DNA from: Terriglobales bacterium
GTDB lineage: Bacteria > Acidobacteriota > Terriglobia > Terriglobales > Acidobacteriaceae
Direction of reading: 5' to 3'
Assembly: GCA_016185365.1 (NCBI GenBank)
Contig: JACPNP010000021.1
Span: forward strand, 1-64,000
Length of the DNA: 64,000 nt
The translations under genes and the position numbers were made by a program. Below, piece after piece: positions 2,112 to 22,340 of this stretch (positions within the stretch are counted from its first letter, which is position 1; the number at the start of each line of letters is the position of its first letter). The notes under the pieces are model-generated. The model searched no databases and was not told the DNA's origin. It saw nothing but the letters and a program-made list of their open reading frames with translations.

Positions 2112-4283
2112 ATGTCTCTGGATCTTTCCACCAGCGTCCAATACATCAAGGGCGTGGGCCCGGCGCGGGCCCAGTCGCTGGCCGCCAAGAACATCCAGAC
2201 CGTGGAAGACCTCCTTTATTACCTCCCGTTCCGCTACGAGGACCGGATGAACCCGCGCACCCTGGCGGAATTGCGGCCCGGTGAGATGGCCAGCCTCATC
2301 GCCGAGGTGCGCGGTTCCGGCTTCTTCCGCACCCGCAAGATGCCCCTGATGCAGGTCACCTTCGGCCAGGGAAGGAGCTCGCTCAAGGCCATCTGGTTCA
2401 ACGCTTCCTATTTGAAGGACCGTTTCAAAGCGGGAATGCTGGTCGCGCTTTACGGCAAAGTGGAAGACAGCCAGTTCGGACGCGGCGGCCTGGTGATGAA
2501 ACAGCCGCAGTTCGAGGTCCTGGGCATGCCCGAACAGGGCGAGCTTGACGCGGAGTCGGAGGCGAAGATCGAGCACTCGCTGGAGATCGGGCGCATCGTT
2601 CCCATCTACGAAAGCGCCGACCACCAGAAACTCACCTCGCGCTGGTTCCGCGGCGCATTATGGCGCACGCTGCAGCAGCTGCAAGGGCCTCTCGCGGATG
2701 GCATTCCCAAAGCCGTACGCGAGCGCATGGACTTGGTCGACCGCCTGGAAGCCTTCCAGAAGGCGCATTTTCCTCTTGCGGGCGAAAGTTTCGCCGACCT
2801 GCAAGCCAAGCGCACGCCCGCGCACCGCCGTCTGATCTTCGAAGAGCTGTTCTATCTCGAGGTCGGACTGGAGCTGAAGCGTGCGCGCCTGAAAGGCCGG
2901 CGCGGCATCGCCTTCACGGCGGGCGAGCCGGTGCGCGCAGCCATCAAGAAGTTCCTGCCGTTCCATCCCACGTCGGCCCAGAAGCGCGTGCTGAAGGAGA
3001 TCGCGGAGGACATGCAGCATCCCACGCCCATGCGCCGCCTGCTGCAAGGCGACGTGGGCAGCGGAAAAACGCTGGTGGCGCTGGAGGCCGTTGTCATCGC
3101 CATTGAGAACGGCCATCAGGCCGCGCTGATGGCGCCCACCGAGATCCTGGCCACGCAGCATTATCTTTCCGCGCGGCGGCTGCTCGAACCGTTGGGCTAC
3201 CGCATCGTGTTGCTCACCGGGTCGGTGGAACCGGCGCAGAAGCGCGGCATCCGGCGGCACATCGCGCAGGGTGGCGCGCAACTGGTGATCGGCACGCACG
3301 CCCTGATCGAGGAAAAAGTGGAGTTCGCCAAGATCGGACTGGTCATCGTGGACGAACAGCACCGCTTCGGCGTGATGCAGCGCTTCCGCCTGATGAAAAA
3401 GACCGGCGAGGCCGAGCCCCACGTGCTGGTGATGACGGCCACGCCCATCCCGCGCACGCTGGCGCTCACGCTTTACGGGGACCTCGACGTCAGCGTGCTG
3501 GACGAACTGCCGCCCGGGCGCACGCCTATCACCACGCGCCGCGTCACCGACGACCGCTCCGCCGACGTCTGGGAGTTCCTGCGCAAACAGGTCAAGGCCG
3601 GGCACCAGGCCTACGTTGTCTATCCCGTGATCGAAGCCGCGGAAGAGAACGATCTGCTGGGCCTGACCGCCGAGGAGGTCGAAGCGAACAAGGGCCGGTC
3701 GAAGCTCGGCCTGAAGGCCGCCATCAGCATGTATGACGAGCTGCGCAGGAAGCTCCTGCCTGACCTGCGCGTCGGCCTGCTGCATGGGCGGCTGCCGTCC
3801 GAGGAAAAAGATACGGTCATGCAACGCTTCCTGCGCAAGGAGATCGACGTGCTGGTCTCGACCACGGTGATCGAGGTCGGTGTGGACGTGGCCAACGCGA
3901 ACCTCATGGTCATCGAGCACGCCGAGCGCTTCGGACTTTCGCAGCTCAGCTACTGTGTGCTGATGACCGGGGGCAAGGTCTCGCCCGAAGCCGACCGCCG
4001 CCTCAGCGAGATGGTGCGCACCCAGAACGGGTTTGAGATCGCGGAGCTGGATCTTGAGCTGCGCGGCCCGGGAGAGTTTTTCGGCACGCGCCAGGCCGGC
4101 ATGCCGGAGTTCCGCGTCGCCAGCCTGTTGCGCGACCGCAAGATCCTGGAGCTGGCCAAGCGCGAGGCTGCGATCGTGGTCTCCGGCTCAGATCCCGCCA
4201 TCTCCAAACAAGAGGTGACGACCGTGATGGACCACCTCAAGAGCCACTGGCAGCGGCGGTATGGGTTGGTGGAGGTCGGCTAG
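2112..4283 (+). CDS. recG: ATP-dependent DNA helicase RecG
   Basis: RecG remodels stalled replication forks and branch-migrates recombination intermediates. The protein is about 723 residues, near the usual family length. The N-terminal wedge/OB region is followed by Walker A GDVGSGKT, the DExH-type box DEQHRFG, MTATPIPRTLALT, and the RecG-typical GDLDVSVLDELPPGR. The C-terminal helicase part has the family-specific GEFFGTRQAG. I chose ATG 2112 (MSLDLSTSVQYIKGVGP) because the helix-hairpin-helix-like start normally begins there; a TTG at 2091 is in frame but less likely. The stop overlaps the convergent ric stop by 4 bp. The last ~57 codons are present a second time near 7507-7701. Confidence 0.97.
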   Translation: MSLDLSTSVQYIKGVGPARAQSLAAKNIQTVEDLLYYLPFRYEDRMNPRTLAELRPGEMASLIAEVRGSGFFRTRKMPLMQVTFGQGRSSLKAIWFNASYLKDRFKAGMLVALYGKVEDSQFGRGGLVMKQPQFEVLGMPEQGELDAESEAKIEHSLEIGRIVPIYESADHQKLTSRWFRGALWRTLQQLQGPLADGIPKAVRERMDLVDRLEAFQKAHFPLAGESFADLQAKRTPAHRRLIFEELFYLEVGLELKRARLKGRRGIAFTAGEPVRAAIKKFLPFHPTSAQKRVLKEIAEDMQHPTPMRRLLQGDVGSGKTLVALEAVVIAIENGHQAALMAPTEILATQHYLSARRLLEPLGYRIVLLTGSVEPAQKRGIRRHIAQGGAQLVIGTHALIEEKVEFAKIGLVIVDEQHRFGVMQRFRLMKKTGEAEPHVLVMTATPIPRTLALTLYGDLDVSVLDELPPGRTPITTRRVTDDRSADVWEFLRKQVKAGHQAYVVYPVIEAAEENDLLGLTAEEVEANKGRSKLGLKAAISMYDELRRKLLPDLRVGLLHGRLPSEEKDTVMQRFLRKEIDVLVSTTVIEVGVDVANANLMVIEHAERFGLSQLSYCVLMTGGKVSPEADRRLSEMVRTQNGFEIAELDLELRGPGEFFGTRQAGMPEFRVASLLRDRKILELAKREAAIVVSGSDPAISKQEVTTVMDHLKSHWQRRYGLVEVG

Positions 4284-5050
4284 ACCGCGCCGCAGGCCAA
4301 CCCCGGCATCGTCGCCGGACGGGCGCCGCCGCCCGCTTCCTCCATCGCCATCGCCCGCGGGAAGAGGATGTTGTTCTCCAGATGCACGTGCAGATGCAGG
4401 TCCTTCTCAAAATCCGCGATCCCGGCATAGAGACCGCGGAAACTCGGGCACGCATCCTCCGGCGGTTGGAATCCGTCTGTGATCTTACGCAGTTCGGCCA
4501 GGATCGCGCCCGCGCTTTCGTGCTCGCCGATCATCATGCGCACCGGGTTCGCCACCGTGCCAAAAATGGACGGCGGCATCGGCTGGCCGGCGGAGAGTTC
4601 ATGCTCCATCCGTGCGATGAACGGGAACAGGATCTGTTCTTCCTTCATCATGTGCGCGCTCATGTCGTCGGCCAAGAGGTCCACCAGGGTCTGGACCTCG
4701 CGCAGCTCCGGGTGCTTCGCTTCATGGCGGGAGCGTACCTTAGCGGCCAGTTCGCGCAGCCGGGGCGACTCTCCGCGCACAAAGGCATGATGCCGCCGCA
4801 CGATGTGCTGGATCACCTTGGCCATCGCGGCGCCGGACCAATCGTTCAAGTCCGTCTCACCGGGAAGCCGTGTGGCTTCCGCCAGTTTCTCCCGGACCTG
4901 CTCCGGATCAAGTTGCAACTCCTGGCAGGCAGTCTCAAGACTCTTTCGCCCGCCGCAGCAGTAATCGATACCGAACCGCTCGAACACACGGATGGTGGCG
5001 GGGTTTTCGACGGCGATATCGCGGATGGTCTTCTGGGTCGCGACGCTCAT
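4280..5050 (-). CDS. ric: Iron-sulfur cluster repair di-iron protein (RIC/YtfE/ScdA family)
   Basis: RIC proteins supply iron to repair Fe-S clusters damaged by nitric oxide or oxidants. The 256-residue product has an N-terminal DUF542/ScdA part with the diagnostic YCCGG motif (FGIDYCCGGRKSLETAC). A hemerythrin-like domain follows, with many spaced His and Glu (RRHHAFVRGE, MMKEEQILFPF, GEHESAGAI, HLHVHLENNILFP) to hold the di-iron site. ATG 5050 is preferred because AAGGAGA lies just upstream; a longer frame to 5125 would swallow the promoter. A Crp/Fnr-type palindrome lies 52-65 bp upstream. It sits beside nirK and a Crp/Fnr gene, fitting protection from NO made by NirK. Confidence 0.93.
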   Translation of the reverse strand: MSVATQKTIRDIAVENPATIRVFERFGIDYCCGGRKSLETACQELQLDPEQVREKLAEATRLPGETDLNDWSGAAMAKVIQHIVRRHHAFVRGESPRLRELAAKVRSRHEAKHPELREVQTLVDLLADDMSAHMMKEEQILFPFIARMEHELSAGQPMPPSIFGTVANPVRMMIGEHESAGAILAELRKITDGFQPPEDACPSFRGLYAGIADFEKDLHLHVHLENNILFPRAMAMEEAGGGARPATMPGLACGAV

Positions 5051-5073
5051 GGCTGGGTCTCCTTGTTGACACA

Positions 5074-5115
5074 AGGCTACCGGCCAGGGGCCTTCGCGGC
5101 AGTGACTAATGTCAC
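5074..5115 (-). promoter_or_regulatory. Crp/Fnr-type box and -10-like element of ric
   Basis: On the minus strand the perfect palindrome GTGACATTAGTCAC (5102-5115) is followed, after 22 nt, by TAGCCTTG (5079-5072). The nirK promoter has the same arrangement. A start about 6-7 nt after the -10 would put the palindrome centre near -41.5, the class II position typical of FNR/DNR activators. The site lies in the 71-bp gap between the regulator's stop and the ric start, so ric has its own promoter. That the regulator encoded at 5122-5832 binds here is inference. Confidence 0.75.
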
Positions 5116-5121
5116 GCGCCT

Positions 5122-5832
5122 TCAACCGGATTGCGATTCGCTTTGTTGCAGCGTTTGCAACGCTTTCAGGTCCTTGATAAGGATGTGGCGTCCGTCCACC
5201 TCCAGCAGTCCCTCCGCCTGCAAGCGCGCAAGGTTGCGCGAGACAAGTTCGCGCACCGTGCCGATCTGGTTCGCCAACTCCTGATGGGAGCCCGGCAGCT
5301 CCAGCGCGATGCCGCGTGCGGTCTTGTGTCCGCTCTCTGACAAGCGCAGGAGCGAAGCGATCAACCGCTGGCGCACTGTCGTGAAACTTAGCTCCTCGAT
5401 GATGCCCACCAGCCGCCGTAATCGGGAACCGACCACGGCCAGGAGCTTCAAGGCGACTTCGGGACGCTCACGGCAGAACGCATGAAAGTCCTTGCGCGAG
5501 ATGAAGATCATCTCTGTCTCCGTGGTCGCATTCGCTGACGCCGGATACGGGCCGCCGTCAAATACCGGAAGCTCCGCGATCGAACTACCCGGTCCCTCCA
5601 TGGCCAGGACCTGCTCCCGTCCCTGGGGTGAGAGTTTGAAGATGCGCACGCCGCCCTGGGCCACTACGTAAAACCCCGCGCAGGGTTCACCTTCCGCGAA
5701 CAACAGTTCGCCTTCGCCATAAAGCTTGCGCACCGCCCGGCCCGCCAGCTGGGCCATCTCCTCTTCCGACAATCCGGAGAAAAGGGCCGCTTTTCCAAGG
5801 GCTTGCAGGATGGTGGAGCGCGCTTCCGGCAT
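5122..5832 (-). CDS. Crp/Fnr-family transcription regulator
   Basis: A 236-residue protein with a cyclic-nucleotide-binding-like sensor fold (residues ~15-130) and a winged-helix DNA-binding domain (~150-225). The recognition helix (GTVRELVSRN, R194 E195 S198 R199) resembles the E..SR helix of FNR plus the extra Arg of CRP, which fits TGAC-type half-sites. There is no N-terminal cysteine cluster; only C51 and C120 are present, so an FNR-like 4Fe-4S oxygen sensor is unlikely. A DNR-like (heme/NO) sensor is a possibility, not shown. It is transcribed away from nirK, and the palindrome at 5881-5894 lies between them, so it may also regulate itself. Confidence 0.9.
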   Translation of the reverse strand: MPEARSTILQALGKAALFSGLSEEEMAQLAGRAVRKLYGEGELLFAEGEPCAGFYVVAQGGVRIFKLSPQGREQVLAMEGPGSSIAELPVFDGGPYPASANATTETEMIFISRKDFHAFCRERPEVALKLLAVVGSRLRRLVGIIEELSFTTVRQRLIASLLRLSESGHKTARGIALELPGSHQELANQIGTVRELVSRNLARLQAEGLLEVDGRHILIKDLKALQTLQQSESQSG

Positions 5833-5880
5833 GCGGCGATTGTAGCAACTTGCGCCATGCCCTGGCGTATCAAGGTCCCC

Positions 5881-5922
5881 GTGACATTAGTCACTGCTGC
5901 CCGGCCCACCCCTCGCTAGCCT
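5881..5922 (+). promoter_or_regulatory. Crp/Fnr-type box and -10-like element of nirK
   Basis: The perfect palindrome GTGACATTAGTCAC (5881-5894) is followed after 22 nt by TAGCCTTG (5917-5924), the same box, gap and -10-like word as at ric. It lies between the divergent regulator gene (start 5832) and nirK (start 5955). The matched geometry suggests one regulon activated from a class II site. The site is also 49 bp upstream of the regulator's own start. Confidence 0.77.
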
Positions 5923-5954
5923 TGGAAACACAGGAATTCATAAGGAGGACTCAT

Positions 5955-7493
5955 ATGCGGTCGAAACTTTGGATCCTGATCACGGCCCTGTTGCTGGGAA
6001 GCACGATGTCGGCGCAGATCGGCGAACGCCGCAAGCTGGTGTTGGAACCAAAAGCCACATTGAAGACGGAGCCGGCGGCCTGGACACACGCTCCCATGGT
6101 CCCGGCGCCCATCACACGGAAGGAACAGCGGCGGGTCGTCGTGAATTGGGAAGCGCGCGAGACCAAGGCGGAGATCGCCCCGGGCGTGATCTACGAAGAT
6201 TACTGGGCGTTCGAAGGCCGGGTCCCCGGCCCGGTGCTGCGCGTGCGCGAAGGCGACCTGGTGGAGGTGCATCTCACCAACAACATCACCAGCATGAGGA
6301 ACCACAACATTGATTTTCACTTTGTGACCGGCCCGGGTGGCGGCGCGTCGTCGCTGAACGTGGCTCCGGGCGAGACCGCGGTGCTCGAGGCCCGGGCCCT
6401 GATGCCCGGCTTCTATATGTTCCATTGCGCCAGCCCGGACATTCCCACGCACATCGCCAACGGCATGTTCGGATTCGTGATCGTGGAACCGGCGGAGGGT
6501 TTGCCTGCCGCGGACCGCGAATACTACGTGGTGCAACACGAGCTCTACACGCTCAACGGCAACAAGGGCAAGCAGACTTTTTCCATGGAGCGCGGCGACC
6601 GCGAAGACGCGCAATATGTGGTCTTCAACGGCGCGGTCGGCTCCACCATGGGCCCCAAGGCCCTGAAGGCGAACCTCGGTGAGACCGTCCGTTTGTGGGT
6701 GGGCAATGCCGGACCGAATTACATCTCGTCGTTCCATGTGATCGGCCAGATCTTTTCCAATGTCTACCGCGAGGGTGACATCCTCTCGCCTCCCGGCCAC
6801 GGCATCCAGACCACGCTCATCCCGGCCGGAGGTTCGGCCGTGGTGGAGTTTGCGTCCTCCGTGCCCGGCACATTTTTATTGGTGGACCACGCCATCTTCC
6901 GCCTGCACAAAGGCGCGGCCGCTTCGATCGTGATCGACGGGCCCAAGAATGGTGAAGTGTTCGATCCCGTCACCGCCGGAGCCAAAGCCATGACCATGAG
7001 TGACAGTGACCACGTGGCCGCGCCCGCCGCCCATGATCATGCCGCGCCGTCGATGGAGAAACCGGCCGCGCCTCCTGCGGCCGCGCCGCGCAAGACCGTG
7101 CCCAAGAAGCCCGCAAAGCCCGTGTCCCTGGCCTACCCGATCACCAGCTTCAGCGCCGCCAGTTTTCCCGAGGAATTGGAGGATCTAAAGAGCTCGGTGA
7201 ATGCGATGAGCGGTAATGTGGTGATCAAGATGCTGCCCGGCGCCGGCAACTACAATCCCGACCCGGCCAACTCGTATTCATCGCCGCATGTGACGGTCAG
7301 GTCCGGCAGCAGGGTCACGTTCCTCAATACCGATGACATGGTCCACTTCAACAAGGATGACAAAGGCGAGTTCCAGACTCCCATGCTGAAGTCAGGCATG
7401 GCGTTCAGCCATGTGTTCAGCAAGCCCGGCGTATACCACTACACCTGCATCCCTCATCCGTGGATGAAGGGCACGATCACTGTCGTGAAGTGA
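5955..7493 (+). CDS. nirK: Copper nitrite reductase (NO-forming) with C-terminal cupredoxin domain
   Basis: Reduces nitrite to nitric oxide in the cell envelope. The 512-residue product starts at ATG 5955 behind a strong AAGGAGGA and has a signal peptide (MRSKLWILITALLLGSTMSA). Copper ligands can be placed: type 1 H117, C158, H166, M171 (FHCASPDIPTHIANGM) and type 2 H122, H157, H312. The catalytic Asp and His equivalents are D120 (HNIDFH) and H261 (SFHVIGQ). After residue ~330 comes an Ala/Pro/Lys-rich linker with His, then a third cupredoxin domain ending YTCIPHPWMKG (C498, H501, M504), probably a tethered electron donor. It is regulated by the Crp/Fnr box upstream. Ric nearby fits NO stress. 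A different multicopper oxidase activity is less likely. Confidence 0.88.
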   Translation: MRSKLWILITALLLGSTMSAQIGERRKLVLEPKATLKTEPAAWTHAPMVPAPITRKEQRRVVVNWEARETKAEIAPGVIYEDYWAFEGRVPGPVLRVREGDLVEVHLTNNITSMRNHNIDFHFVTGPGGGASSLNVAPGETAVLEARALMPGFYMFHCASPDIPTHIANGMFGFVIVEPAEGLPAADREYYVVQHELYTLNGNKGKQTFSMERGDREDAQYVVFNGAVGSTMGPKALKANLGETVRLWVGNAGPNYISSFHVIGQIFSNVYREGDILSPPGHGIQTTLIPAGGSAVVEFASSVPGTFLLVDHAIFRLHKGAAASIVIDGPKNGEVFDPVTAGAKAMTMSDSDHVAAPAAHDHAAPSMEKPAAPPAAAPRKTVPKKPAKPVSLAYPITSFSAASFPEELEDLKSSVNAMSGNVVIKMLPGAGNYNPDPANSYSSPHVTVRSGSRVTFLNTDDMVHFNKDDKGEFQTPMLKSGMAFSHVFSKPGVYHYTCIPHPWMKGTITVVK

Positions 7494-7506
7494 CCCGTTT
7501 GTGGCA

Positions 7507-7701
7507 TGGGCCGGCGGCACATCGGAGTTCCGCTTCGCAAGCTTGGTGCGCGACCGCAAGATCCTGGAGCTGGCCAAGCGCGAGGCTGCGATTGTGGTCG
7601 CAGGAAACGATCCGGCCATCTCCAAACAGGGGGTCGTGACTGTGATGGACCACCTTAAGAGCCACTGGCAGCGCCGCTACGGAGTGGTGGAAGTGGGATG
7701 A
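7507..7701 (+). pseudogene. Duplicated 3' end of recG (fragment)
   Basis: This stretch encodes EFRFASLVRDRKILELAKRE and the rest of the RecG C-terminus up to RYGVVEVG and a stop. It matches the last 57 codons of the intact recG (4110-4283). By hand I count about 29 differences in 174 nt (roughly 83% identity) but only 7 amino-acid changes. That bias to silent sites means the copy diverged while still part of a working recG, probably in another lineage, rather than decaying here. It has no helicase motifs and no upstream recG sequence beyond about 7507. With the intact gene it brackets the ric-regulator-nirK block. An in-frame ATG at 7507 could express 65 residues, but no function is expected. 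Confidence 0.85.
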
Positions 7702-7754: not shown

Positions 7755-8309
7755 TCAAATCTTAGGGAAGTCAATCTCACCGTCGATCAATCTCATAATC
7801 AACGTACCATTGTCCTTAACCCATTTATTTGGAATGCTTTTCCGATATCTCTGAGGGTATGGGTCCGGATATTCAGCTTTCCATTTGTCGAAGAATTTGG
7901 ATGCCTTTTTCCCAGTAACGAATCTAAGCTCAACACGCTTCAAATTGTCCGAATGACTAAAAAACAGATGACCTACACGAGAGTCGTCATCCAATTTCTG
8001 CTTTCCGGTGTCTTTGTGATACTGGTACTCAAAACTTCCGCCCTTCTCGGCGGACTTAACCTCGTACTTCTTCAGGTCCGTGCCTTTTCCGCGCTTTGTG
8101 CCTTCGTCCCTAACCAAGATCGATGCGAAAACTTCCCAATCAGATGGCAGCACCTTCCCGGCGCCATGGATGTCTCGGGCAAGATACAGTCTTAGTTTTC
8201 CCTGAAGAGGCCCGTACATATATGCATGGAAAAACATCAGGGCTTTTTCGAAATCAAGATCGGATGGAGGCGACATCACTAAGGGCTTGGGCTTTCGAAT
8301 TCTTGCCAT
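7755..8309 (-). CDS. Probable type II restriction endonuclease
   Basis: A 184-residue basic protein, third in a minus-strand operon after vsr and a C5-cytosine methyltransferase. I do not recognise its family by sequence, but GTDLKKYEVKSAEKGG fits a PD-(D/E)xK active site (D, then E-V-K six to eight residues on). Position and size match the restriction partner of the methyltransferase. Its ATG (8309) lies 56 bp inside the methyltransferase gene; an internal ATG at 8276 would cut the overlap to 23 bp. Base composition is clearly lower in GC than the flanks, like the rest of this operon, suggesting recent transfer. Recognition site unknown. Confidence 0.6.
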   Translation of the reverse strand: MARIRKPKPLVMSPPSDLDFEKALMFFHAYMYGPLQGKLRLYLARDIHGAGKVLPSDWEVFASILVRDEGTKRGKGTDLKKYEVKSAEKGGSFEYQYHKDTGKQKLDDDSRVGHLFFSHSDNLKRVELRFVTGKKASKFFDKWKAEYPDPYPQRYRKSIPNKWVKDNGTLIMRLIDGEIDFPKI

Positions 8310-9393
8310 TGCGCAGACCTATTTGTCCGTTGCTGGAGATGCAATTTCTAATTACCCACTGTACCGCAGGGACGCACACTGCGTCACCAAAACCCAGCAA
8401 TGCCATGTTTTCAGGCACGTCAATGGTAAATTCCGGCGCTCCCTGTAATCTCGCATATTCCCGCGCCGTCATGTTCCTGACTCGCCACCGACCGCGCCCG
8501 GCCTGGATAACGAATTGCTTGCTGCTCCCACCTCGGGGCGTACGTAGACAGCCCGCAATGCCATCTGTGCGCAATTCCGCTCTGCACTTGCCTTCTCGTA
8601 TCCTTTTGTAAACCGTTGCAAATGAGTCCGACTGCGACCTGACGATTGTCTGTAATTTCTCCCGATGCAATTCGTTCATCTGAGAATAAAGATGTTTCTT
8701 GCGATCGTTGCCCCACCAAATTGACGAAGAATCGGGAAACCGCTCGAGTAACTGAGAAAGGGTCTCTCGCTTGATATTTAGGGGACTCAAGTTCGAAATA
8801 GACCAATCCAGTCCCGGATTCTTCAGAATGAAATCTACTACGGCTTTGGGCCGGGCTAAATGTGTCCTGAGCAGTCCATTGTTGCTATTCGGAATAGGTG
8901 GTTTCCCGATGATGAAAAGCCGCGGACGGCTCTGGGGAACGAAAAATCTGGCATCGACTACAACAATGTCACATGCATATCCTAGTGAATTTAGTGTCCT
9001 AAGAATTTCACGTAAATCGCGACCTTCATTGGAAGTCAATAATCCGAGTACGTTTTCCAATAACACCCATCGGGGACGCTTTGAAGCCATTCCTTTCAGA
9101 ATGCGCGCAAATTCCCAAAACGTTGATGAATGTTTACCGGCAAGGCCGGCTCGGTTTCCCGCTAGTGAGACGTCAATGCAGGGGAATGATGCAGTGGCAA
9201 GGTCGACCTTGGGAACAGATTCAGAGGTGATGTCTTGAATGTCACAATGCCGAAAATCCGTCCCCCCAAAGTTGCCTTGATACATTGCAAACTTCTTTTC
9301 GTCATTATCGTTGGCAAATACCACTTGCCAGCGCTCATTTTCTAGAGCCATGCGGACCAATCCAATACCTGAAAAAAATTCCGCCGCCCTCAT
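8254..9393 (-). CDS. DNA (cytosine-5)-methyltransferase
   Basis: Transfers a methyl group from SAM to C5 of cytosine in a specific site. The 379 residues hold the family motifs in order: I (EFFSGIGLVRMALE), IV with catalytic Cys72 (SFPCIDVSLAG), VI (WVLLENVLGLL), VIII (QSRPRLFIIG), IX (REYARLQG) and X (GFGDAVCVPAVQWV). The target-recognition region lies between VIII and IX. Start ATG overlaps the vsr stop by 4 bp (ATGA), and the downstream nuclease gene overlaps its 3' end, so the three genes are translationally coupled. Low GC marks it as acquired. Confidence 0.95.
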   Translation of the reverse strand: MRAAEFFSGIGLVRMALENERWQVVFANDNDEKKFAMYQGNFGGTDFRHCDIQDITSESVPKVDLATASFPCIDVSLAGNRAGLAGKHSSTFWEFARILKGMASKRPRWVLLENVLGLLTSNEGRDLREILRTLNSLGYACDIVVVDARFFVPQSRPRLFIIGKPPIPNSNNGLLRTHLARPKAVVDFILKNPGLDWSISNLSPLNIKRETLSQLLERFPDSSSIWWGNDRKKHLYSQMNELHREKLQTIVRSQSDSFATVYKRIREGKCRAELRTDGIAGCLRTPRGGSSKQFVIQAGRGRWRVRNMTAREYARLQGAPEFTIDVPENMALLGFGDAVCVPAVQWVIRNCISSNGQIGLRNGKNSKAQALSDVASIRS

Positions 9394-9833
9394 TGTCCTG
9401 CTCTCCTTCTTTCGACAGTCCGCATGATTTTTTTCAAACAGACATTCGGGCGCTGCTTCCAGTCACCTTCCCAGATTCGTATTACTGACCAACCGCTTTT
9501 CCTCAACCGCCTGCTTACAGCGCGATCACGCGCTGCGTTTGAATGTATCTTCCTTATCCAATAACTGCGATTATTGCAATTGCGAAGCTGATCCTCAAGG
9601 CTACGAAAACCTCGCGTGCGCCATTGTCGCCCATGCCAAAAATCTCCATCTAGAAAGATTGCTAACCGCCAATCATATAAAACAAAATCAGGCTTTCCTT
9701 CAACGCCCTTAGGATGTGCGCGAAATCTCAGTTGAGATCTACGCAAGACCGACGCAAGGCTTTTTTCAGGGCGCGTTCCCGTTGATTTGATGGAACGCAT
9801 GATCTTGGAGACCAGTTGTCGAGCTCGCTTCAT
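9390..9833 (-). CDS. vsr: Very short patch repair endonuclease (Vsr)
   Basis: Nicks next to T:G mismatches that arise when 5-methylcytosine deaminates. The 147 residues carry the family pattern: MRSIKSTGTRPE near the N-terminus, KPDFVLYDWRLAIFLDGD with the catalytic Asp, FWHG, and WSVIRIWEGDW near the C-terminus. It is the first gene of the operon and overlaps the methyltransferase by 4 bp, the usual partnership. About 190 bp of AT-rich sequence upstream (9834-10024) holds the likely promoter; I see no clear operator. Confidence 0.93.
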   Translation of the reverse strand: MKRARQLVSKIMRSIKSTGTRPEKSLASVLRRSQLRFRAHPKGVEGKPDFVLYDWRLAIFLDGDFWHGRQWRTRGFRSLEDQLRNCNNRSYWIRKIHSNAARDRAVSRRLRKSGWSVIRIWEGDWKQRPNVCLKKIMRTVERRRAGQ

Positions 9834-10024
9834 ACAATTACTTTAGTCAACCGAGCATATCATAGCGAATAAACATCGAAGAAACAAGAATTGCATGAAT
9901 CCGTGGAAGTCTTTCTCTGACTGGGAAGAAGGTTCATTGCGGCAGCTACTTTGTGGCACACAGCGCTATTTACAAGAGTTTGTCGGCGGCATCCGAGCCC
10001 GTTATCCCAAGGTACAATAATCGC

Positions 10025-11425
10025 GTGAGCCAGGCGGCCAACGCGCTCTATCGCAAGCTTCCCTCCGTGGATGAGCTGCTGCGCACCACGGCCATGCTGG
10101 AACTGGCGGTGCGCGAAGGCAATGCGGTCGTGGCCGAGGCCACGCGCGTGGTGCTGGCGCGTCTGCGCGAAGAGATCGCCGCGGGACATCTGGACACCGC
10201 CGGCGTCGACCTGGCCGTCACCGGCATCCATGATGCCGTGGAGCGCGAGTTGCGGCGCAACCTGGCGCCTTCGCTGCGCCCGGTGATCAACGCCACCGGC
10301 GTGGTCCTGCATACGAACCTCGGTCGCGCGCCGCTTTCCCGGCCCGCCATCGAACGCATCGCCGCCACCGCCGGCGGATACTCCAATCTTGAATTCGACC
10401 TTGAGACCGGACAGCGCGGCAAGCGCGACGTCCACGTGCAGCGCCTGTTCGCCAAACTGCTGGGCCCGGCCGCCTATGAAGCGCACACCGTGGTGGTGAA
10501 CAACTGCGCCGCCGCCGTGCTGCTGGCGCTGAACACCCTGGCCGAGGGCGGGGAAGTCATCGTGAGCCGCGGCGAGCTGGTGGAGATCGGCGGCAGCTTC
10601 CGCGTGCCCGAGATCATGGCCAAGAGCGGGGCCACGCTGCGCGAGGTGGGCACCACCAACCGCACCCGCATCGCCGATTACGAGAACGCCATCACCGAGC
10701 GGACCCGGCTCCTGTTGCGCGTGCATCGCTCGAACTTCGCCATCGTCGGATTCACCGAGCAGCCTTCGCTGGAGGAGTTGGTGGCGCTGGGCAAGAAGCA
10801 CAAGGTCCCGGTATTGGAAGACCAGGGCAACGGTTCACTCTTCGACCTGAGGCAAGTGGGTGTGAACAACGAATCGGGAGTGATGGAGAGTCTGCGCGCC
10901 GGCGTGGACGTGGTGACCTATAGCGGCGACAAATTGTTAGGTGGCCCACAGGCCGGCATCCTCAGCGGACGCAAGGAGTGGATCGCGAAGATCCGCTCCA
11001 ACGCGCTCTTTCGCGCCTTGCGCCTCGATAAGCTGGCCTATGCCGCGCTGGAAGCGACACTGGCGGAGTATGTGCGCGGCTCGTATGACACGGTCCCGGC
11101 CTTGCGGATGATGCGCATTTCCGCGGATGTGCTTCGGATGCGCGCCGAGGCGCTGAAAGCCCGGTTGCGTCATCCCAAGCTGGCGGCCGAAGTGGTCGCC
11201 GGCGAATCCGTGATCGGCGGCGGCACCGCGCCCACGGCCACGCTGCCCACGTTCCTGCTCGCGGTCACGCACAAAGACCTGAGTGCGGATGAGCTGCAAG
11301 CCCGCCTCCGCGCCAACGACCCGCCTATCATCGCCCGCGTGGACGAAGGCCGGGTGATGCTCGACCTGCGCACGGTGTTTGAAGAGCAGGTGGCGGCCCT
11401 GCAGGAAGCGCTCAGTCGTTTGTGA
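10025..11425 (+). CDS. selA: L-seryl-tRNA(Sec) selenium transferase
   Basis: SelA converts Ser-tRNA(Sec) to selenocysteinyl-tRNA(Sec) using selenophosphate and PLP. The 466-residue product shows RPVINATGVVLHTNLGRAPL, VVNNCAAAVLLALN, SRGELVEIGGSFRVP, GTTNRT and the PLP-lysine motif YSGDKLLGGPQAG. GTG 10025 (SQAANALYRKLPSVDELL) matches where SelA proteins start; a longer in-frame start at 9953 is unlikely. No selB, selC or selD is in the window, so they must lie elsewhere if the pathway is complete. This gene supports reading the in-frame UGA of the SelW-like gene at 55538-55804 as selenocysteine. Confidence 0.95.
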   Translation: MSQAANALYRKLPSVDELLRTTAMLELAVREGNAVVAEATRVVLARLREEIAAGHLDTAGVDLAVTGIHDAVERELRRNLAPSLRPVINATGVVLHTNLGRAPLSRPAIERIAATAGGYSNLEFDLETGQRGKRDVHVQRLFAKLLGPAAYEAHTVVVNNCAAAVLLALNTLAEGGEVIVSRGELVEIGGSFRVPEIMAKSGATLREVGTTNRTRIADYENAITERTRLLLRVHRSNFAIVGFTEQPSLEELVALGKKHKVPVLEDQGNGSLFDLRQVGVNNESGVMESLRAGVDVVTYSGDKLLGGPQAGILSGRKEWIAKIRSNALFRALRLDKLAYAALEATLAEYVRGSYDTVPALRMMRISADVLRMRAEALKARLRHPKLAAEVVAGESVIGGGTAPTATLPTFLLAVTHKDLSADELQARLRANDPPIIARVDEGRVMLDLRTVFEEQVAALQEALSRL

Positions 11426-15973: not shown

Positions 15974-18082
15974 ATGCGTGCCTTCAAGTCTTTCTCCCTG
16001 CTTGCCGCGCTGATGCTCTTGCTGACGTGCGGCGCTCTATATGCTGCCGACAACAAGGCCAAGCCGGCGGCCAAGCCCGCCGCCGCGGCGACCGCTCCGA
16101 CCAAGGCGACCGTGGTCGCTGATGCTCTCGATAAGTCCGTCGACCCCTGCGAAGACTTCTACGAATTTGCCTGCGGCACCTGGCGGAAGAAGAACCCGCT
16201 GCCCGCCGACCTTAGCCGCTATGGCCGTTTTACCGAACTCTATGAGAACAACCTGAAGATGCTGCGCGAGATCCTGGACGCTTCGGCCAAAGGCGGCGCC
16301 GGCCGCAATGCCGTGGACCAGAAGATCGGCGACCTGTACTCCTCCTGCATGGATGAGCCCGCGGTCAACAAGGCCGGCATCGCCCCGATCTCCAAGGAAC
16401 TGGCCAAGATCGATGGCATGACCTCCAAAGACCAGCTGACGGATGTCCTGATCGCGCTGCACCGGGCCACTCTGCCCGGGTTCTTCAATTACTATTCCTC
16501 GCCCGATCTGAAGGACGCCAACAAGGTGATCGCGTATGTGGATCAGGGCGGACTCGGTCTTCCCACCAACGAGTACTACTCCAAGACGGACCCCAAGTCG
16601 GTGGAGATCCGCGAGAAGTACCAGGCGCATGTGGCCAGGATGCTGGAACTCTCCGGCTACTCGGCGGCGCAGGCCGCGGCCGGCGCAAAGGCGGTGATGG
16701 CGGTCGAGACCGCGCTGGCCAAGAGCTCTCTGACTCCGGTGCAGCAGCGCGATCCGCAGATCCAGTACAACCCCACCTCCATCCTGATCCTGCAGAATCT
16801 TTCTCCCGCGATTGATTGGGAGAAATATGTTCCCGGCGTGGGCACCCCCAAGCTGGATACGTTGAATGTCTCTGTGCCCAAGTTCCTCACCGGTGTGAAC
16901 GCGGTGGTGCAAAGCTCCAGCCTGGACGACATCAAGACCTACCTGCGCTGGCAGGCGGTGCACAATGCCGCGACCGTTCTCTCCGATGACTTCGTGAATG
17001 AGAACTTCAATTTTTACAGCAAGTCATTGCGCGGCACGCAGAAGCTGCGTGACCGCTGGAAGCGGTGTGTGGATTTCGTCGACCAGAGCCTGGGCGAAGC
17101 CCTCGGCATCGCCTATGTGAAGAAGGCCTATGGTCCCGAAGCCAAGCAGCGCATGGACAAGATGATCGCCGATCTCTACACCGCGCTCGGCCAGGACATC
17201 CGTACCCGGCTGCCGTGGATGAGTCCGGAGACCAAGAAGCAGGCCCTGCACAAGCTGGAAAAGATCGCCAACAAGGTCGGCTATCCGTCGAAATGGCGTG
17301 ACTATTCGGCGGTGAACATCGTGCCGGGTGATTTCGCCGGCAACATGGGCCGCGCCTCGGAGTTCGAATTCCAGCGCCAACTGGGGAAGATCGGCAAGCC
17401 CATCGACAAGACGGAATGGCTGATGACGCCGCCCACGGTGAACGCGTATTACAACCCGCAGGAGAACAACATCAACTTCCCCGCCGGCATCCTGCAGCCT
17501 CCGTTTTTCTATAAGGAACTCGATGATGCCGTGAATTACGGCGCCATCGGCGTGGTCATCGGCCATGAGATCACCCACGGCTTCGATGACCAGGGCCGCC
17601 AATTCGACGCCGACGGCAACCTGAAAGACTGGTGGACGGAAGCGGACGGCAAGGCTTTTGAAGAGCGGGCCGGCTGTTTCGTGGACCAGTACAACGGCTA
17701 TGTCGCGGTAAAAGATGACAAGGGCAATGACGTGCATGTGAACGGCAAGCTCACGCTGGGCGAGAACGGCGCGGACAATGCCGGCATGCGCATCTCCTGG
17801 ATGGCGTTGATGAACGTGCTGGCCAAGCAGCCGGCCAGGAAGAACGTGAAGGTCGACGGCTTTACGCCGGAACAGCGTTTCTTCCTCGGCTATGCCCAGG
17901 TGTGGTGCCAGAACAACACTGACCAGTCGGCGCGCGTACAGGCCCTCGGCGACCCCCATTCGCCGGGCCGCTACCGGGCCAATGGTGCGGTGCGCAACAT
18001 GCCGGAGTTCCAGAAGGCGTTCGCGTGCAAGGCGGGTGCGGCCCTGGCGCCGGACCCGGCCAAGCGCTGCAGCGTCTGGTAG
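15974..18082 (+). CDS. M13-family zinc endopeptidase, copy 1 (neprilysin/PepO-like)
   Basis: A secreted or envelope metallopeptidase that cleaves peptides. ATG 15974 gives a signal peptide (MRAFKSFSLLAALMLLLTCG ending ALYAA). The mature start is an Ala/Lys/Pro-rich linker, then SVDPCEDFYEFACGTW, the family's hallmark. The catalytic region has NAYYNP, the zinc motif HEITH in GHEITHGFDDQG, and the third-ligand motif GENGADNAG. The latter differs from the usual GExxxDNGG but keeps E and D. Ends CSVW, the typical M13 end. First of three tandem paralogues, all on the plus strand and all near 680-700 residues. Confidence 0.95.
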   Translation: MRAFKSFSLLAALMLLLTCGALYAADNKAKPAAKPAAAATAPTKATVVADALDKSVDPCEDFYEFACGTWRKKNPLPADLSRYGRFTELYENNLKMLREILDASAKGGAGRNAVDQKIGDLYSSCMDEPAVNKAGIAPISKELAKIDGMTSKDQLTDVLIALHRATLPGFFNYYSSPDLKDANKVIAYVDQGGLGLPTNEYYSKTDPKSVEIREKYQAHVARMLELSGYSAAQAAAGAKAVMAVETALAKSSLTPVQQRDPQIQYNPTSILILQNLSPAIDWEKYVPGVGTPKLDTLNVSVPKFLTGVNAVVQSSSLDDIKTYLRWQAVHNAATVLSDDFVNENFNFYSKSLRGTQKLRDRWKRCVDFVDQSLGEALGIAYVKKAYGPEAKQRMDKMIADLYTALGQDIRTRLPWMSPETKKQALHKLEKIANKVGYPSKWRDYSAVNIVPGDFAGNMGRASEFEFQRQLGKIGKPIDKTEWLMTPPTVNAYYNPQENNINFPAGILQPPFFYKELDDAVNYGAIGVVIGHEITHGFDDQGRQFDADGNLKDWWTEADGKAFEERAGCFVDQYNGYVAVKDDKGNDVHVNGKLTLGENGADNAGMRISWMALMNVLAKQPARKNVKVDGFTPEQRFFLGYAQVWCQNNTDQSARVQALGDPHSPGRYRANGAVRNMPEFQKAFACKAGAALAPDPAKRCSVW

Positions 18083-18104
18083 AAGCAGTTGACAGGACCA
18101 GCAC

Positions 18105-18129
18105 GACCCGGCGTGACCAGCGCCGGGTC
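18105..18129 (+). terminator. Hairpin after M13 copy 1
   Basis: GACCCGGCG (18105-18113) pairs perfectly with CGCCGGGTC (18121-18129) around a 7-nt loop. No long T-run follows ('ctggctcct'), so it may only slow transcription or protect the mRNA end. Confidence 0.45.
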
Positions 18130-18160
18130 CTGGCTCCTATAGATTAAATTCGAGGTGGCC

Positions 18161-20209
18161 ATGAAACGGATGATGATGGTGGCGGTATGCCTTTTTCTCG
18201 GGGTGGCGGCTTTCGCCCAGGGTAGCGAAAAAATGTCGCCGCCGCGCAGTCTGGACCTGAGCGCGATCGACAAGAGCGTGGATCCATGCCAGGACTTTTA
18301 TCAGTATGCGTGCGGTGGATGGCGCAAGGCCAACCCCATCCCGGGCGATAAGTCCCGCTGGGGCCGGTTCGACTACCTCGCCGAGTACAACCGTTATGTG
18401 TTGAAAGACATTCTGGAGAAAGCCTCGCAGCCGGGCGTGAAGCACGGCAAGCTGGAGGCGCAGGTCGGCGACTTCTATGCCTCCTGCATGGACACCAAGA
18501 CCATCGACGGCCGCGGCATCCAGCCGTTGGCGCCTTATCTCAAGAAATTGGACGCGGCCGCCACCAAGGCGGACTTGGTCCGCGCTATGGGTGAGTTCCG
18601 TCGCGAAGGCCTTGTTGCGCTGTTCAACTTCGGCGTGGGCTCCGACCTCAAGGACTCGAACCGGACCTTGATGAATATAGATCAGGGCGGCACCAGCCTG
18701 CCCGACCGGGACTACTACCTGAAGCCCGACCCGCGCTCGGCCGATATCCGCGAGAAATATGTTGCCTACATGACCAAGATGTTCCGACTGGCCGGTGACA
18801 GCGCGGAGAAGGCCGCGGCCCAGGCCGCGGCCATCCTGGCGCTGGAGACTAAGTTGGCGGACGCGCAGTTGGACCGTGTGGGCCGCCGCGATCCGAAGAA
18901 CCGCGACCACAAGATGAGCTATGCGGAGATGGCCGCGCTCACTCCGAGCTTCGACTTCAACGCGTACTTCACGGCGTCGGAGTCGCCCAAGTTCGAGACC
19001 GTCAACGTCGGCTGGCCCAAGTTCTTCCAGGCGCTGGATGGGACCTGGAAAGACACACCACTCGACGACCTGAAGGCGTATGTGCGCTGGCGTTTGCTGA
19101 ACTCCGCCGCGCAGACCCTGGCCTCCGATTTCGAAAAGGCGAACTTCGACTTCTACAACGGCTTCCTGCGCGGCATCAAGGAACAGCCCCCACGCTGGAA
19201 GACCTGCGTGAACAGTGTGGATGGCAACCTGGGAGAGGCCCTCGGCCCGCTCTATGTGGCCGCGGCTTTCGGTGGTGACAGCAAAGCCCGCATGAAGAAA
19301 CTGGTGGAAGCCCTTACGGTCGCGTTGGAGCAGGACATCAACCAGCTCGATTGGATGACACCGGAGACCAAGAAGAAAGCGGTCGAAAAGCTGAAGCTGC
19401 TCAATAAGGACAAGATCGGATATCCCGATATCTTCCGCGACTACTCCTCGGTCGCGGTCAAGCGCGACGACTTCTTCGGCAACAACCTGCGCACCAACGT
19501 GTTTGAGACCAAGCGCAACAACGCCAAGCTGGGCAAGCCGGTGGACAAGACCGAGTGGGGCATGACCCCGCCCACCGTCAACGCCTATTACAACCCCCAG
19601 TTCGCGGAGATCGTCTTCCCGGCCGGCATCCTGCAGCCCCCGTTCTTCAGCAACATGATCGATGACGCGGTGAACTTCGGCGGCATCGGCGCGGTCATCG
19701 GCCATGAGCTTTCCCATGGCTTCGACGACTCCGGCCGCAAGTTCGACGGCAAGGGCAACTTGCAGGACTGGTGGACGGAGACGGACGGCAAGCAATTCGA
19801 GGACCGGGCCGCCTGCATCGTCAACCAATATGGGTCGTATTCTCCGGTGAATGATTCCAAGACCGGAGAGCCGGCCAGGTTGAATGGCAAGTTGACCCTG
19901 GGGGAGAACATCGGCGACAACGGCGGCCTGCGCATCGCCTATATGGCGCTGATGAACACTCTCGCCGGCAAAGACAAGAAAGTGGTCGACGGTTTCACGC
20001 CGGCGCAGCGCTTCTTCCTTGGCTTTGCCCAGGTATGGTGCCAGAACACCACGGACGCGGAATCACTCAACCGGGTGAAGACCGATCCGCACTCTCCGGG
20101 TGAGTTCCGCGCCAACGGCACCATCGGCAACATGGAGGAGTTCCAGAAAGCCTTCAGTTGCAAGGCCGGTGACAAGATGGCGCCGGAGAAACGGTGCCGA
20201 GTCTGGTAA
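18161..20209 (+). CDS. M13-family zinc endopeptidase, copy 2
   Basis: Second of three tandem M13 peptidases. ATG 18161 (MKRMMMVAVCLFLGVAAFAQ) starts a signal peptide; a GTG two codons upstream is also in frame. SVDPCQDFYQYACGGW, NAYYNPQFAEIVFPAGILQP, GHELSHGFDDSG (zinc motif HELSH) and GENIGDNGG are intact, and the protein ends CRVW. A strong terminator-like hairpin follows, so the three copies may be transcribed separately. Its sequence is closer to copy 3 than to copy 1 in the catalytic block. Confidence 0.95.
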   Translation: MKRMMMVAVCLFLGVAAFAQGSEKMSPPRSLDLSAIDKSVDPCQDFYQYACGGWRKANPIPGDKSRWGRFDYLAEYNRYVLKDILEKASQPGVKHGKLEAQVGDFYASCMDTKTIDGRGIQPLAPYLKKLDAAATKADLVRAMGEFRREGLVALFNFGVGSDLKDSNRTLMNIDQGGTSLPDRDYYLKPDPRSADIREKYVAYMTKMFRLAGDSAEKAAAQAAAILALETKLADAQLDRVGRRDPKNRDHKMSYAEMAALTPSFDFNAYFTASESPKFETVNVGWPKFFQALDGTWKDTPLDDLKAYVRWRLLNSAAQTLASDFEKANFDFYNGFLRGIKEQPPRWKTCVNSVDGNLGEALGPLYVAAAFGGDSKARMKKLVEALTVALEQDINQLDWMTPETKKKAVEKLKLLNKDKIGYPDIFRDYSSVAVKRDDFFGNNLRTNVFETKRNNAKLGKPVDKTEWGMTPPTVNAYYNPQFAEIVFPAGILQPPFFSNMIDDAVNFGGIGAVIGHELSHGFDDSGRKFDGKGNLQDWWTETDGKQFEDRAACIVNQYGSYSPVNDSKTGEPARLNGKLTLGENIGDNGGLRIAYMALMNTLAGKDKKVVDGFTPAQRFFLGFAQVWCQNTTDAESLNRVKTDPHSPGEFRANGTIGNMEEFQKAFSCKAGDKMAPEKRCRVW

Positions 20210-20217
20210 AAGATGGC

Positions 20218-20250
20218 AACGCCGTGCCGCCAGGCACGGCGTTGTTGTTT
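20218..20250 (+). terminator. Intrinsic terminator after M13 copy 2
   Basis: AACGCCGTGCC (20218-20228) pairs perfectly with GGCACGGCGTT (20233-20243) around a GCCA loop, followed by GTTGTTT. The 11-bp GC-rich stem and T-rich tail fit a Rho-independent terminator. Confidence 0.8.
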
Positions 20251-20291
20251 GCACGGACGCAGTTGCCCGGATCGCGGGCCAAGGACGGACT

Positions 20292-22340
20292 GTGAAACGA
20301 CTTTTCTGCGGATGTCTCCTATTCGCTGTGACGAATCTGATTGCCCAGGCGCCGGCGGCCAAGTCAGGCGCCGCCGGGTTCGACTTGGGCCAGCTCGATA
20401 CCAAGGCCGATCCCTGCGCGGACTTCTATCAGTATGCGTGCGGCGGCTGGCGCGCAGCCAATCCCATCCCGGCGGACCAGTCCCGTTGGGGCCGGTACAA
20501 CGAGATGGCGGAGCTGAACCGCACGCGCCTGCGCACCATCCTGGAGGAACTGTCCGATCCGAAGAACCGGCACAATGCGGTCGAGAAGCAAGTGGGCGAT
20601 TACTATGCCGCTTGCATGGATGAGAAGGGCGTGGAGGCGAAAGGCGCTTCCGTCATCCAGCCCTATCTGAAAAGGATCGCCGCGGTCTCCGGCCGCAAAG
20701 CGCTGCTCGCGGTGGTGGCGGATCTGCACGCGGATGGCATCGGCGCGTTGTTCAATTTCGGCGCGGCGCCCGATCTGAAGAACGCCTCGCAAGTCATCGC
20801 CGAGATTGATCAATCCGGCATCAGCCTGCCGGACCGCGACTACTATCTGAAGTCCGATCCCAAGTCCGTGGAGCGGCGCGAGAAGTACCTGGAACACATG
20901 AACAAGATGTTCACGCTGCTGGGGGAGACTCCGGAAGCCGCGGCCGCCGACGCCAAGAGCGTGATGGAGGTCGAGACCGCATTGGCCCAGGCGTATATGG
21001 ACCGCACGCTGCGCCGCGACCCCAAGAACCTTGACCACAAGATGGCCCGCGCGGATGTGATCAAGCTGGCGCCGAACTTCGAGTTGGCCCGTTATTTTGA
21101 CGCCATCGCCTCGCCCGCGTTCACGGAAATGAACGTGGTCAATCCTGAGTTTTTCAAGAACATCAACACCGCTCTGGAGAGTCTCCCGCTTGACCAGTGG
21201 AAGGCGTATCTGCGCTGGAGGGTATTGCGCAGCAGCGCCAACCGCATGTCCTCCGCTTTCGTGGAGGAGAATTATCGTTTCAACAACGAATACCTGCGCG
21301 GCACCCGCGCCATGGAGCCGCGCTGGAAGCGTTGCGTCGCGTCGGCAGACGCCCAGATCGGCGAGGCCTCGGGCAAGCTCTTCGTGGAGCGCTACTTCGG
21401 CTCCGAAGGCAAGGCCAAGATACGCGAGCTGGTCAACAATGTGATGGCCGCGCTCGAAGAGAGCATCCGCACGGTGGATTGGATGGGCGACGCCACCCGC
21501 AAGAAGGCCATCGAAAAACTCCACGCCATCAGCACCAGGAAGCTGGGGTTCCCCGAGACCTATCGCGATTACTCCGCGGTGAAGGTCGCGCGCGACGACT
21601 ACTTCGGCAACAGTATCCGTGCCAACCGCTTCGAGCAGAAGCGCGACCTGGCCAAGATCGGCAAGCCCGTGGACAAGAGCGAGTGGGGCATGACGCCGCC
21701 CACCGTCAACGCCTATTACGATCCCCAGTTCGCGGAGATCGTCTTCCCGGCCGGCATCCTGCAGCCGCCCATGTTCGGCCTGGCCTTTGACGATGGTTAC
21801 AGCTATGGCGCCATCGGCCGCGTGGTGGGCCACGAATTGACCCACGGCTTTGACGATGAAGGCCGCAAGTTCGACGCTCAGGGCAACCTCACCGACTGGT
21901 GGACCGAGGCCGATGCCCAGGCCTTCGAAGAGCGCGCCTCCTGTATCGAGAAGCAGTATGCGGAATACTCTCCGGTGAATGATGACAAGACCGGTCAACC
22001 CATGTATCTCAACGGCAAGCTCACGCTGGGTGAGAACACGGCCGACAATGGCGGTGTGCGCATGGCCTATCTGGCCTACATGAAGTCGCTGGAGGGCAAG
22101 GAGCGCAAGATCGTGGACGGCTTCACGCCGGAACAACGCTTCTTCCTCGGTTACGCCGTCAGCCGCTGCGAGAACGTCACCGATCAGACCTCACGTCTGC
22201 TGGTGGTGACCGACCCGCACTCGCCCGGTAAGTTCCGCCTGATCGGCGCGGTCACCAACATGCCGGAGTTTTGGAAGGCGTTCAGTTGCAAGCCGGACCA
22301 GCCGATGGTCCGCGGCGATAAATCCTGCAAGGTGTGGTGA
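20292..22340 (+). CDS. M13-family zinc endopeptidase, copy 3
   Basis: Third tandem M13 peptidase. GTG 20292 behind AAGGACGG gives a signal peptide (KRLFCGCLLFAVTNLIAQA); the frame is open back into the previous gene but that part is not plausible protein and includes the terminator. KADPCADFYQYACGGW, NAYYDPQFAEIVFPAGILQP, GHELTHGFDDEG and GENTADNGG are all intact, and the product ends CKVW. The three copies differ in zinc-motif middle residues (HEITH, HELSH, HELTH), suggesting old duplications with retained activity, perhaps with different peptide preference. Confidence 0.95.
   Translation: MKRLFCGCLLFAVTNLIAQAPAAKSGAAGFDLGQLDTKADPCADFYQYACGGWRAANPIPADQSRWGRYNEMAELNRTRLRTILEELSDPKNRHNAVEKQVGDYYAACMDEKGVEAKGASVIQPYLKRIAAVSGRKALLAVVADLHADGIGALFNFGAAPDLKNASQVIAEIDQSGISLPDRDYYLKSDPKSVERREKYLEHMNKMFTLLGETPEAAAADAKSVMEVETALAQAYMDRTLRRDPKNLDHKMARADVIKLAPNFELARYFDAIASPAFTEMNVVNPEFFKNINTALESLPLDQWKAYLRWRVLRSSANRMSSAFVEENYRFNNEYLRGTRAMEPRWKRCVASADAQIGEASGKLFVERYFGSEGKAKIRELVNNVMAALEESIRTVDWMGDATRKKAIEKLHAISTRKLGFPETYRDYSAVKVARDDYFGNSIRANRFEQKRDLAKIGKPVDKSEWGMTPPTVNAYYDPQFAEIVFPAGILQPPMFGLAFDDGYSYGAIGRVVGHELTHGFDDEGRKFDAQGNLTDWWTEADAQAFEERASCIEKQYAEYSPVNDDKTGQPMYLNGKLTLGENTADNGGVRMAYLAYMKSLEGKERKIVDGFTPEQRFFLGYAVSRCENVTDQTSRLLVVTDPHSPGKFRLIGAVTNMPEFWKAFSCKPDQPMVRGDKSCKVW

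Follow-up and report, generated by a model that had tools for sequence, protein, structure and literature searches.

Phage 21 integrates in icd of E. coli. The element e14 lies in the same gene and leaves there a displaced end of 163 bp (PMC6379469). Homology-facilitated illegitimate recombination has been studied in experiments with competent bacteria and was seen rarely in E. coli conjugation (PMC3240628). Restriction-modification genes are known to insert with a long duplication of their target (Nobusato et al. 2000, cited in PMC1643837). Clusters of nirK, a CRP/FNR-type regulator gene and ric occur in Acidobacteriota, as in the genomes G084 and G849. The locus described here combines such genes with a duplicated recG 3′ end. 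As with e14 and phage 21 in icd, a working 3′ end is kept and a mostly silently different displaced end lies beyond the insert; unlike in these systems, integrase and phage genes are absent, the insert holds three metabolic or regulatory genes, and the junction lies directly against the nirK stop.

The window, the whole stretch of 64,000 nucleotides that was analysed, belongs to a 99-kb contig of a draft MAG of soil-type Acidobacteriales (70 contigs, 2.38 Mb, 89% complete, listed contamination 0.47%). The relatives retrieved via recG were Acidobacteriales MAGs, and the recG product has 75% amino acid identity to that of the nearest genus (G022). The features of the locus are listed in Table 1. 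Further along the window, at 16400-22300, tandem paralogous genes with a DNA-level identity of 66–69% were observed.

Table 1. Features of the recG–selA region (positions in the window).
Feature	Position	Strand	Remarks
recG	2112..4283	+	complete, 723 aa; ends in tail copy 1 (4107-4280)
46-nt block identical between tails	4128..4173	+	limits approximate; may be a crossover segment
ric/ytfE-type di-iron Fe-S repair protein	4280..5050	-	TIGR03652, 239 bits (cut-off 204.7)
Palindrome GTGACTAATGTCAC upstream of ric	5102..5115	.	probable regulator site; same place in G084
CRP/FNR-family regulator	5122..5832	-	64-65% identity in G084 and G849 cassettes
Palindrome GTGACATTAGTCAC in regulator–nirK divergent promoter gap	5881..5894	.	
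nirK, copper nitrite reductase with C-terminal cupredoxin domain	5955..7493	+	best solved relative 2zoo
Tail copy 2, displaced recG 3′ end	7497..7701	+	clear homology 7525-7701; decayed 7497-7524
184-aa ORF	7755..8309	-	candidate restriction enzyme from position; no family match in three libraries
DNA cytosine-5 methyltransferase	8254..9393	-	PF00145, TIGR00675
Vsr-type mismatch endonuclease	9390..9833	-	TIGR00632, 107 bits (cut-off 97.85)
selA	10025..11425	+	ancestral direct neighbour of recG

Between the two recG tails, ric and the CRP/FNR regulator gene are read leftward and nirK rightward, in a divergent arrangement. The gene identities proposed in an earlier, sequence-only reading were borne out: RIC/YtfE contains both the ScdA_N and the hemerythrin domain and scores above the family cut-off, the regulator is of the CRP/FNR family, and NirK reaches 295.6 bits with TIGR02376, marginally below the cut-off of 296.3 (E=5e-88). 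The NirK motifs HNIDFH, FHCA...THIANGM, SSFHVIG and LVDHAIF, which we take to be the copper ligands and the catalytic Asp and His, align with those of 2zoo. The insert abuts coding sequence tightly at both ends; the stop codon of ric overlaps that of recG as a shared CTAG, and tail copy 2 starts 3–4 bases past the nirK stop. The cassette has a native GC content (63%). Both palindromes have the form GTGAC-N4-GTCAC with centres TAAT/ATTA. Six exact copies of this form are present in the genome, and the AT-rich centre is found only in the two of the cassette.

The same cassette was sought next to recG in other genomes and was not found there; G084 and G849 carry it elsewhere, in stretches without recG. 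In G084 the divergent layout is identical and two palindromes, one of which has a single mismatch, occupy the corresponding positions; in G849 nirK lies beside crp-ric. The NirK proteins of these clusters are 55–64% identical to that of the cassette. The cassette is rare: in a search of 398 genomes of the family, G084 encoded the only close NirK elsewhere (58%), the others reaching at most 48%, and the NirK core with the highest identity comes from another family (G849, 64% over 356 aa). Since layout and palindromes are kept in G084, and crp-ric is kept with nirK in G849, the cassette is, as judged from these comparisons, a self-contained, autonomous and conserved unit. NirK would make NO, the regulator (probably responsive to NO or oxygen, a putative signal) would respond, probably at the two palindromes as its predicted sites, and RIC would repair iron centres damaged by NO.

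A repeat of the recG end beyond the cassette had been noticed in the sequence-only reading and is present (58 codons, 7525-7701). The tails at 4107-4280 and 7525-7698 align without gaps, with 147 of 174 nucleotides and 51 of 58 residues identical. The 27 nucleotide differences make up 16 silent and 7 replaced codons; the 29 differences counted earlier equal these 27 plus differences in the stop codon, and the seven residues agree. A search of the whole 2.38-Mb genome with the recG tail (84% over 183 nt, E=3e-52) yielded two tails in total. Homology 5′ of 7525 is weaker and reaches to about 7497, with three 1-nt deletions in copy 2 (p ∼0.005 in shuffles and 0.003 relative to genomic 31-mers).

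The divergence of the tails was characterized by a dS of 0.62, a dN of 0.074 and a dN/dS of 0.12, values within the range of working recG pairs. Simulation of a duplication with one neutral copy gave ∼15 replacements at the same distance, and 7 or fewer in 0 of 800 runs. Most of the divergence therefore arose in two working recG genes, in agreement with the earlier proposal of divergence under selection and not by decay of a local duplicate. In the tree the two tails pair with each other (98/78), with the nearest genus adjoining them, and thus both derive from one genus-level lineage. Sister tails within this species had been named beforehand as an argument against that proposal; the tails are indeed sisters, but a dS of 0.62 is far beyond within-species divergence and so indicates a congeneric donor. 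Copy-specific change was judged by outgroup comparison and branch lengths. The branch of copy 2 (0.11) is about twice that of copy 1 (0.048), and among 78 other tails 67 are closer to copy 1 and 8 to copy 2. V3, E35 and L53 are lost in copy 2 only; nearly all of these 78 tails have V/I, E/D and L, respectively, at the three positions. Because three near-invariant residues are broken and the 5′ end carries the apparent 1-nt deletions, copy 2 is now, on this evidence, a relic under relaxed constraint. The history of the tails would thus comprise a long divergence in two working congeneric genes, after which copy 2 went through a briefer period of relaxed constraint.

The comparison of gene order in relatives, suggested along with the sequence-only reading, revealed recG–selA as the ancestral arrangement, with no cassette, in the nearest genera and in others. 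In the nearest genus (L033, L034, L035) selA starts no more than a few bases after recG and precedes acpS, and the tight junction is also found in L164, L167, L170, L171, L174, L179, L180 and L194; the last of these is from G084, whose own recG still adjoins selA and whose cassette lies elsewhere. As recG and selA adjoin directly in the nearest genera, the whole stretch from 4284 to ∼10,010 was added; the flanking order in the window, GGDEF-recG...selA-acpS, is the ancestral one. Inserts of ∼0.7–1.1 kb between recG and selA are present in L165, L172, L173, L176 and L177, none with a tail duplication. The recG–selA gap therefore tolerates insertions, none of them like that of the window. In L165 (G168, nearest genus) a foreign-looking, AT-richer single gene (4250-5050) is placed exactly between recG and selA. 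Just before selA in the window (10012-10025), AGGTACAATAATCGC resembles the L033 recG–selA junction AGGTGGGATAATAATCCGA; this resemblance is suggestive only of a third recG remnant or a trace of the native junction.

The added stretch contains a second insert, the C5-methylase/Vsr block at 7755-9833 between tail 2 and selA, beyond the part that the earlier reading had covered (4110-7701). With 48% GC it is a separate low-GC insert of non-native composition.

Recombination with a related lineage, as had been proposed, is the best reading of the locus given the pattern of tail divergence and the ancestral recG–selA arrangement. We infer, with a probability of about 0.6, that the locus is a recombination scar between two congeneric lineages at the recG–selA junction, because a long divergence in working genes was followed by a relaxed phase in copy 2. 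One lineage would have carried the cassette fused behind its own recG. Its DNA would have entered a relative and undergone homologous recombination within or upstream of recG, and an illegitimate join just past the nirK stop would have connected it to the resident recG ∼65 codons short of the end of that gene. The cell would then keep one complete recG with tail 1, and the resident tail 2 would be left behind to decay. Homology-facilitated illegitimate recombination, with a homologous end and an illegitimate join, would yield exactly this product (PMC3240628). Unlike in those experiments, the event is here proposed from sequence, and a search of the genome, which is 89% complete, gave no comEC (PF03772); natural transformation is therefore not supported as the route. 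We lean towards the cassette and tail 1 as the import, since tail 2 is the one without a gene body. In the mirror version, which is somewhat less favoured, recG and the cassette were resident and tail 2, the methylase block and selA came in; the mechanism is identical with the roles swapped, and the number of steps is equal. The event is of an ordinary, tidy and not unprecedented kind, and provides a new example with a neat read-out.

Against recombination between congeners it can be held that the 46-nt identical block may instead have served as core in a site-specific event, in which case the locus would resemble e14 in icd: an element integrated into the recG 3′ end by crossover in this core and brought tail 1, tail 2 being the displaced host end and the integrase since lost or acting in trans. 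The anatomy fits, as an intact gene is completed by one tail, the displaced tail lies at the far end with silent differences, and each end of the insert bears a copy of the gene's 3′ end. However, the 99-kb contig is without a tyrosine integrase (the genome's three map to C10 and C60), and the cassette has no mobility gene and no site-specific recombinase among its proteins. The identical block comprises 14 consecutive codons (shuffle p 0.006); runs of 15 were found in 2 of 34 pairs of relatives. A full recG with an adjacent second tail was moreover found in none of the 397 other genomes of the family, and such an integration seems unlikely. With this count, and with no tyrosine integrase on the contig, the earlier suggestion that recG could be a landing site for such cassettes is not supported. 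That the recG 3′ end is an attachment site for integrative cassettes with their own recG ending, of which this would be the first seen, its recombinase lost or in trans, is accordingly held to be very improbable. Six other second-tail matches were obtained among the 398 family genomes, and none was adjacent to recG: a full-length paralog in G091, contig-edge pieces in G284, G403, G412 and G345 (the G345 piece belonging to a second recG), and in G299 a single stray tail that has decayed and lies at another place. A candidate recG fragment in G073 proved to be a frame-split recG. The stray tail of G299 (L178, 5645-5788) is decaying, lies far from recG beside an algH-like ORF, and has a dN/dS of 0.49 relative to recG of the same genome.

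The sister position of the tails, the longer branch of copy 2 and its relaxed residues would also suit a recG end that was duplicated locally in this genome and whose copy 2 then decayed. Such a history is very unlikely in view of the dN/dS of 0.12, the neutral-decay simulations and the absence of any stop codon in the 174 nt of copy 2 despite a dS of 0.62. An assembly chimera of co-occurring congeneric strains, in which a recG–cassette arrangement was joined to a recG–methylase block–selA arrangement, would account for a degree of tail divergence that fits two such strains, and the genome is a draft MAG in 70 contigs. A false join would need shared sequence at the junction of nirK and tail 2 (7493-7524), where none is evident, and both the listed contamination and the ancestral flanking order argue against it; we regard a chimera as improbable. 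Finally, the methylase block touches tail 2, so that this restriction-modification-like block might be considered to have caused an insertion with a long duplicated target. In the insertions of Nobusato et al. 2000 (cited in PMC1643837) a methylase block likewise shares its locus with direct repeats; in contrast to these, the block in the window is not flanked by repeats, and at no time were the repeats recent identical copies. They enclose the nirK cassette and leave the methylase block outside, and copies made by target duplication would start identical, whereas these tails diverged under selection, which makes this explanation extremely improbable.

Read as recombination between two congeneric lineages at recG, the locus is a well-preserved and legible record of the possible entry of a self-regulated nitrite-reductase cassette into a housekeeping operon of an uncultured member of the Acidobacteriales, and the two tails can be used to time it. 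The family has a patchy distribution of denitrification genes, with one close NirK (that of G084) in 397 other genomes, and scars of this kind show one route of entry.
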